Part shown: positions 8,835 through 53,054 of the stretch, in pieces
How the letters are laid out: every line of letters begins with the position of its first letter
How positions within the stretch are numbered: the stretch's first letter is position 1
Assembly: GCA_002839705.1 (NCBI GenBank)
Contig: PGYO01000001.1
Coordinates: 434,001 to 498,000, forward strand
Length of the DNA: 64,000 nucleotides
DNA from: Methanobacteriales archaeon HGW-Methanobacteriales-1
GTDB lineage: Archaea > Methanobacteriota > Methanobacteria > Methanobacteriales > Methanobacteriaceae
Direction of reading: 5' to 3'
Made by a program: the position numbers and the translations under genes
The notes under the pieces: generated by a model
What the model saw: the letters and a program-made list of their open reading frames with translations, nothing else
What the model was told of the DNA's origin: nothing
Database searches by the model: none

Positions 8835-8878
8835 TACATAATAATAACAAAAAAGAGATATAACAAGGAGGTGATAAT

Positions 8879-9064
8879 ATTTCTACAATCACCACAACGG
8901 AAGATATTATGACCGAAACAATCGTACAACTTCATATAAGAGTAGACAAAACCATAAGAGATAACGTAAAAATAATGGCCATCAGAAGAGGAATGACACA
9001 AAATGACCTCTTACTCGAATACGTAGAAACTGGTCTCAAAAAAGACGAAAAGTTTCTGAAATAA
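8879..9064 (+). CDS. Ribbon-helix-helix protein, probable AUU start
   Basis: The 61-residue frame contains a ribbon-helix-helix pattern: strand TIVQLHIRVD, then helices KTIRDNVKIMAIRRG and TQNDLLLEYVETGL. The frame is open from an ATT at 8879 that sits five bases after GGAGGTGAT. The first in-frame ATG (8909) is about 34 bases past that site and would leave a 51-residue protein. I therefore favour an AUU start, with ATG as the alternative. Facing the histone-fold operon, it is the likely repressor of the element. Confidence 0.65.
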   Translation: MSTITTTEDIMTETIVQLHIRVDKTIRDNVKIMAIRRGMTQNDLLLEYVETGLKKDEKFLK

Positions 9065-51567: not shown

Positions 51568-52083
51568 TGAATAAGTCCATTAGGGGTGTGATGTGAGTTG
51601 GAATTTACTCAATTTCAATTTCCACCATATTTTTTTATTTTTATAAATATTTATTTTAAAAAAATCAATAAAAAGACTATAAATTAAAAAATACCTCTTA
51701 ATAAGCCTTAATTAAAAATAAGTAATTTAAGATTATATAAGATGTTTTTAATTGATATTTAAATCTATTTTTGTTGATTAATGCCTTAAACTTCCTTCTT
51801 TGTAAAGGCCATACTTTAACTATTTTAGAATAAGCTTTAATTAAGGTTATTATAGTAAATTATATCTCATTTAATGTTCTACTCTTCAAAATAGGCAACC
51901 ATATCTCTTATCCACATTGAGCTATATCAATCTCTTTTAAGATGTTTTTAAATCCTATAAAAGCCTCTAAAACAGCCTTATTTTTATTTTCTGACCAAAG
52001 CCTTTATAAGCGATGCTGACTAAAGTTCATTTTTCCAAGATGGGTCTTATGAGTTCAAGACACTTGGAAATGGAGGCGATAAA
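51568..52083. promoter_or_regulatory. Promoter and 5' hairpin of secreted protein
   Basis: The TATA box TTTATAAG (52003-52010) predicts transcription start near 52032. Exactly there begins a hairpin, TTTCCAAG (52032-52039) with CTTGGAAA (52063-52070) and inner GTCTT/AAGAC, which ends two bases before the GGAGG ribosome site (52072-52076). The earlier part is AT-rich with no recognised gene. This mRNA appears to start with a hairpin. Confidence 0.5.
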
Positions 52084-52536
52084 ATTACGCGAAACAAAGT
52101 TTTTGCCGTGCTTTTTGCACTAAGTATAGTTGCAGGAATATTACCTGCATCATTTGCAGACAATAATCAAGAAAAGACTAAATTTAAATTAAATGAATCT
52201 AATACTCACGTTAAAGTTGATAAGGCCGTAGAAGTAAATGGGGCCTATAAATATAAGAAATATTCTTATAAGAAATCATCCAGTGGATATCGTTACAGTA
52301 AAATTGGAGACTGCTGGGCCATGAGTAAATACCTTTACAAGAAATTAACTAAAAAAGGTACTAAAACTCGAATTATACAGTACAAAACCAAAATGTCATC
52401 CCGGCACCGGTCCATTCAATTATATAAAAAAGGAAAATGGGTAGATTATAATTACAAGGCCCATGGTATTAATAAAATATATAGTGCCACTTCCAGTAAG
52501 CCCTGTATGAAAGTAATTGCCACTTCTAAAGTATGA
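52084..52536 (+). CDS. Secreted transglutaminase-like protein, AUU start
   Basis: A frame open from ATT at 52084, seven bases after GGAGG, gives a perfect signal peptide, TRNKVFAVLFALSIVAGILP followed by ASFA-D. The first GTG (52108) would leave out the basic N-terminal residues. The 125-residue mature part carries Cys in GDCWAMS, His in SSRHRSIQ and Asp in WVDYNY, a Cys-His-Asp order like transglutaminase-fold cysteine peptidases. Such enzymes cut pseudomurein in related archaea (pseudomurein endoisopeptidases), so cell-wall turnover is a guess. Confidence 0.65.
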   Translation: MTRNKVFAVLFALSIVAGILPASFADNNQEKTKFKLNESNTHVKVDKAVEVNGAYKYKKYSYKKSSSGYRYSKIGDCWAMSKYLYKKLTKKGTKTRIIQYKTKMSSRHRSIQLYKKGKWVDYNYKAHGINKIYSATSSKPCMKVIATSKV

Positions 52537-53054
52537 ATACATACTTTTTAAAGAGAAAGTAAATTTATTCTTTCTCTATTTTCTATTTATTTTATAAATG
52601 AATTTTATAGAAATTAAAACTTGATTCGTTATTTTATTTTTAATTAAATTTTAACAAGGTTCTATTCTTATTCCAATTCATGGAAACTAAAATATTATAT
52701 TATAAGAATTAAATGGTTAATTAGTTTTTTTTAGTGATTTTTTTTTAGTTTATTCCTACTGGTGAGTTTTTTTAGTGATTTTTTTTTAGTTTATTCCTAC
52801 TGGTGAGTTTTTTTAAATTCTCTGCTCTAATTTTTCAGCATTTAAAGACAATATATTTTTAAATAAGTCCCTATAGGCATTATAGTAATCATATAGTAAT
52901 ATATATTAACTTATCACATCAAAAATAAGCTATAAGTTTAATTTAAAAACGAATACATTTTTAATAATTTGAATTATAACGTTCTAAACTTTAATAAAAT
53001 TGCTTGATTTGAGTGAAAGTATAATTTCAATGATAATTATGATAAGGGGATATC
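52537..53054. repeat. Tandem 42-bp duplication, otherwise empty
   Basis: A unit of about 42 bases (GTTTTTTTAGTGATTTTT, then TTAGTTTATTCCTACTGGTGA) occurs twice in a row at 52724 and 52766. The remainder is AT-rich spacer with the promoter of the MFS gene; AAGGGG precedes the ATG at 53055. Confidence 0.55.

Follow-up and report, generated by a model that had tools for sequence, protein, structure and literature searches.

A probable AUU start codon within a leader element shared by secreted wall-protein genes of Methanobacteriales

The window analysed here is a stretch of 64,000 nucleotides of Methanobacteriales archaeon HGW-Methanobacteriales-1, a member of the Methanobacteriaceae (contig 1, positions 434001-498000, of a 2.57 Mb assembly). 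It contains a forward-strand gene for a secreted protein of 150 residues (52084..52536), which very probably begins at the non-standard start codon AUU (52084..52086). The best overall explanation of the data, to which we assign a probability of about 0.75, would be that translation starts at this AUU, that the codon belongs to a leader element common to wall-protein genes of the order, and that a weak start has been deliberately kept.

The Shine-Dalgarno motif GGAGG occupies positions 52072-52076, followed by a seven-base spacer and ATT at 52084-52086, in agreement with an earlier note on this DNA that had proposed ATT as the start. The reading frame is bounded by TAA (52021-52023) upstream and closes with TGA (52534-52536). 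Between this TAA and the GTG at 52108 there is no in-frame ATG, GTG or TTG. The product started at ATT, (M)TRNKVFAVLFALSIVAGILPASFA followed by DNN, has a normal signal peptide consisting of the basic segment TRNK, a hydrophobic core and ASFA. The product started at GTG, MLFALSIVAGILPASFA, has no basic residues, as the same note had pointed out. Gene callers limited to ATG, GTG and TTG would choose this GTG (52108..52110), which we judge to be an internal Val codon. In its favour, GTG is one of the standard starts, and orthologues retain it at codon 9; the conservation upstream of it might then belong to a leader element only. Such a start is very improbable, as no Shine-Dalgarno motif precedes the GTG, the signal peptide would lose every basic residue, and the conserved Shine-Dalgarno motif would sit 31 bases away. 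Furthermore, paralogues carrying the element have no standard start nearby: 24 of 66 distinct sites show no ATG, GTG or TTG from the upstream stop to codon 12. At all 66 sites a hydrophobic stretch follows, with at least one Lys or Arg among residues 2-9.

Orthologues retain ATT at exactly the same position in two congeners, in one member of another genus (56-61% identical to the window protein) and in eight genomes of a second family. The codon is thus kept within the genus, in another genus and in another family, the comparison by which the AUU proposal was to be judged. Its context, AATGGAGGCGATA(A/G)AATTA(C/A)GCGA, is almost constant. One orthologue, L005, has an in-frame TAG five codons upstream of ATT, which limits its start to AAT GGA GGC GAT AGA ATT or beyond; the first near-cognate codon there is ATT. 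A start at ACG 52087 was rejected, as L005 has AAG in this place and other loci have TCG, AGT or further codons. Together with the signal peptide and a relative in which ATG stands in place of ATT (L254, described below), these orthologues from several genera and two families uphold the proposal of a secreted protein starting at AUU. Other genera of the family have a similar leader of the form GAGGTG...ATT..., with an in-frame ATG two or three codons further on (L086, L087, L026, L027); the start in these genes may have shifted from ATT to ATG.

A further candidate is an upstream ATG, either the one overlapping the Shine-Dalgarno motif (52070) or one at 52040, from which the gene would be reached by a frameshift. 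ATGGAGG does occur at 32 of 66 sites, roughly half, yet at the remaining sites the ATG is replaced by TTG, TCG, ACG, AAG and others. In the window, the frame of the overlapping ATG closes after a short run, with no slippery sequence and no Shine-Dalgarno motif of its own seen. We rejected this candidate because the ATG is not conserved, and regard it as the least probable of all the explanations considered.

The leader belongs to an element that is almost certainly under selection. Its core is nearly invariant, GGAGGCG(G/A)TANA-ATT-NNGCGA, and window positions 52072-52092 conform to the definition GGAGG(C/T)G(N)TANA, directly followed by ATT and NNGCGA. They comprise an extended Shine-Dalgarno block, GGAGGCGATAAA (52072..52083; order-wide consensus GGAGGCGGTAAA), the ATT, and a conserved tail, ACGCGA (52087..52092), which forms codons 2-3 with the consensus NNG-CGA. 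The exact pattern GGAGGNGNTANAATT occurs once in the window, at the 52084 gene, and seven times in the own genome, compared to zero for the reversed control. Six of these seven matches open secreted-protein frames, and the arrangement thus exceeds what chance would give. The pattern GGAGGNGNTANAATG does not occur in the own genome. Across 120 archaeal genomes, GGAGGNGNTANAATTNNNMGA yielded 75 matches against four for the reversed pattern, spread over 27 genomes that all belong to the order of the window (families f1-f3). Family f2, Methanothermobacter-like in gene content, carries several copies per genome. On the deepest branch, the element reads GGAGGAAGTTAT-ATT-AAGCGA (L014). A viral origin was rejected, as a search for the strict element on viral contigs returned no match.

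So that the test would not be circular, further patterns placed no constraint on the start codon. With GCGA required, GGAGGCGNTANA-NNN-NNGCGA gave 53 matches, every one with ATT. In Methanobacteria, GGAGGCGRTANA-NNN was filled by ATT in 79 of 108 cases, by ATA in two, by ATC and GTG in one each, and never by ATG; the remaining codons are scattered and near background. A covariance model derived from 14 leaders added further members and matched 39 of 85 genomes; a few weak matches fall outside the order. Among 25 additional loci that we read, three carry ATC (L251, L253, L255) and one carries ATG (L254), all at the ATT position, while a few weak ones (L238, L256, L259) are clearly not genes. 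In L254, GGAGGCAGTATA-ATG-AAGCGACAT, the ATG stands exactly in place of ATT, which is the behaviour expected of a start codon. The ATC version lies in the own genome at C11:23564-23616 (L253, GGAGGAGATAAA-ATC-TCGCGAAAAATG, with an ATG at codon 5) and is retained in two further genomes, G002 (L251) and G010 (L255). In L186, another own-genome site (C14, around 31769), a secreted protein (IIKKGTIIALLVLSLF) has ATA in the start position, directly behind GGAGGCGATACA; this site is also present in a congener.

AUU use is concentrated in this one element before secreted wall proteins and is not general across the lineage. The earlier view that AUU starts are used and overlooked in the lineage holds for the shared element and fails for scattered AUU starts. 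Its tally of two cases within 64 kb is open to doubt. The unnamed second one is most likely ATT 8879 (AAGGAGGTGATAATATT), an identification made here. At window positions 8862-9064, AAGGAGGTGATAAT-ATT opens a small ribbon-helix-helix-like protein. It is probably not a second AUU start: the ATT is missing from an 83% identical orthologue in G013, and conservation sets in at an ATG ten codons on.

Upstream of the Shine-Dalgarno block, a stem of 6-11 pairs is possible in many leaders, with 0-3 bases between the end of its 3' arm and GGAGG. In the window, the putative stem has eight pairs, with the 5' arm TTTCCAAG at 52032..52039 and the 3' arm CTTGGAAA at 52063..52070, ending one base before GGAGG. 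The letters of the stem vary by gene while pairing is retained, as in GTCTAA/TTAGAC, ATCCAGA/TCTGGAT, GTTCAA/TTGAAC and ATCCTAGCAC/GTGCTAGGAT. The stem threshold was passed by 32 of 55 leaders, a count that itself selects on pairing; the evidence for the hairpin is therefore a permutation test, in which upstream regions were swapped among 43 representative leaders (13.1 observed versus 10.7 +/- 0.4; 0 of 2000 permutations as good). An Rfam search of the leader stretch gave nothing above chance. Further upstream lies a TATA-box-like sequence, TTTATAAG (52003..52010, forward strand), kept in three congeners and in L005; the transcript would start about 25 bases downstream of it, just before the hairpin. 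In some genera, the element precedes large secreted adhesin-like proteins (L099, L232-L234, L237), and a similar upstream stretch, TTTTGGTTTATTAT, stands before the Shine-Dalgarno motif instead of the usual hairpin.

Codons 2-3 are under selection at the nucleotide level, rare codons included. In the bodies of element-bearing genes, ATT accounts for 36% of Ile codons, AAG for 29% of Lys codons and CGA for 7% of Arg codons. Directly behind the start, AAG makes up 28 of 29 Lys codons at codon 2, and CGA 37 of 50 Arg codons at codon 3. A U in place of the C after GGAGG would lengthen the usual Shine-Dalgarno match, and this base is C at 93% of sites. The near-fixation of positions -12 to +9, with the Shine-Dalgarno-weakening C and the GCGA tail, and the hairpin adjoining a stretch that has no Rfam match would also suit an element that is mainly a binding site for an RNA-binding protein or small RNA over the Shine-Dalgarno motif and start. 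The AUU would then be a set of recognised letters and not a weak start. The existence of ATC, ATA and ATG versions speaks against an absolute requirement for the third letter of the start, and we consider this alternative somewhat unlikely.

The proteins encoded behind the element comprise transglutaminase-like, pseudomurein-binding and glycosidase-like wall proteins, with adhesin-like proteins in some genera. Their sequences have drifted apart to about 25-60% identity. Their profile matches include Transglut_core, PMBR (pseudomurein-binding repeats) and a sub-threshold GHL10 (glycosyl hydrolase-like), which indicates wall-directed proteins. The window protein consists of a signal peptide, a Tyr/Lys-rich linker and a transglutaminase-like C-terminal domain (GDCW, HR, GKWVDY). 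It has no profile match to PF01841 (Transglutaminase-like superfamily) at 0.01, as it is too short and too divergent, while 8 of 21 aligned relatives match this family (best 2.5e-8). GDC77W and H108 are invariant among the 21 relatives; the acidic residue after GKW varies. The structure model is of moderate quality, with a predicted local distance difference test (pLDDT) score of 63.6 and values mostly above 80 in the C-terminal domain. Its top structural match, the PeiW catalytic domain (8jx4), is insignificant (E 0.81), and a sequence-profile search of the PDB returned nothing. On these grounds, the window protein is likely a transglutaminase/peptidase-like wall enzyme. PeiW and PeiP are C-H-D cysteine peptidases with pseudomurein-binding repeats (PMC2989375). 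They are prophage proteins, whereas the window protein is small, secreted and without such repeats, so that the PeiW/PeiP-type combination of repeats and C-H-D residues is not present in it.

We postulate that a strong Shine-Dalgarno site at ideal spacing places the initiator Met-tRNA on AUU 52084. This AUU is embedded in a conserved leader, made up of a frequent 5' hairpin of variable sequence, GGAGGCG(R)UANA, AUU and NNGCGA, that is common to a set of genes for secreted pseudomurein wall proteins across Methanobacteriales. An AUU in a strong ribosome-binding context may give a low or adjustable initiation rate and thereby restrain enzymes able to damage the wall; secreted proteins that cut or bind the wall are plausible ones to keep low. 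The comparison among genomes shows the position of the start, its conservation, the gene set and the leader hairpin, while the lowering of output by AUU is inferred. We lean slightly towards AUU acting as a throttle. The level could respond to a signal, either through the initiation fidelity set by aIF1/aIF2 or through an RNA-binding regulator of the hairpin; the hairpin and the GCGA tail point to recognition that extends beyond the codon. Sensing of the aIF1 type is doubtful. A special initiator tRNA was rejected: 30 of 36 tRNA matches were typed with ARAGORN, and only ordinary CAT tRNAs and one tRNA-Ile GAT were seen. For a check of the anti-Shine-Dalgarno sequence, no 16S gene was found in this assembly.

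A single mutation would turn AUU into AUG, yet AUG hardly occurs, and this speaks for selection against it. A different view is that the gene starts at AUU without any throttle, the element being a fossil of duplicated genes that works well enough. Element genes share signal-peptide modules and have many paralogues, and AUU with a strong Shine-Dalgarno site may be efficient in these archaea. Against this stands the rarity of the single base change to AUG, with one clear in-place case among many sites across three or four families, while the proteins diverged as described above, and we hold the fossil view to be unlikely, a little more so than the binding site. Several observations weigh against the overall explanation. 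Many sites are paralogues and hence non-independent, and all evidence is comparative. Perhaps a third to half of leaders have a weak hairpin or none (for example own C6, C11 and C19), and the GTG at codon 9 persists in close orthologues, though not in paralogues. Some relatives start with ATG (L015, L254), and an in-frame ATG lies a few codons downstream in L026, L027 and L086; a weak start is thus not essential everywhere.

In bacteria, AUU and similar starts are known from single genes, and archaea lack IF3. What we observe here is a non-standard start codon kept across species against mutation to AUG, as in infC and sigR, whose non-standard starts are repressed by IF3 in bacteria (PMC5472188). 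The AUU/AUC start of infC, which encodes IF3, resembles the case proposed here in that a conserved AUU is kept for its weakness; in infC it is read by the initiation machinery (PMC5472188). In contrast, infC is a single gene in which an initiation factor controls itself, whereas here the AUU heads a multi-gene archaeal wall-protein set with fixed flanks and often a hairpin. The GTC start of sigR in Streptomyces likewise lies behind an extended conserved Shine-Dalgarno motif, in a gene whose output has to stay low (PMC5472188), but concerns one bacterial gene with a different codon and no element shared across a gene set. In archaea, aIF1 is described as disfavouring non-AUG starts, and would be the factor to disfavour an AUU start; the sections of that work drawn on here concern factor biochemistry and contain no natural set of AUU-start genes (PMC6237735).

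Among open-licence papers, we found no conserved AUU start common to an archaeal gene set with its own flanking signature. More tentatively, we propose a Methanobacteriales wall-protein regulon controlled at translation by the hairpin-Shine-Dalgarno-AUU-GCGA element, in which AUU would be the control point, sensed via initiation fidelity or a dedicated RNA-binding factor; it would be the first multi-gene non-AUG regulon in archaea. Gene callers generally try ATG, GTG and TTG only, and for this reason secreted proteins acting on the wall would, if the shared AUU start holds, be wrongly started or missing in annotation throughout an archaeal order. The shared start also opens a testable question, the regulation of genes by start-codon fidelity in archaea, for an order that has culturable members.

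Downstream of the window gene, between it and a transporter gene, two tandem copies of a T-rich stretch, each of about 43 bases (...TTTTTTTAGTTTATTCCTACTGGTGAG), lie at 52725-52811.
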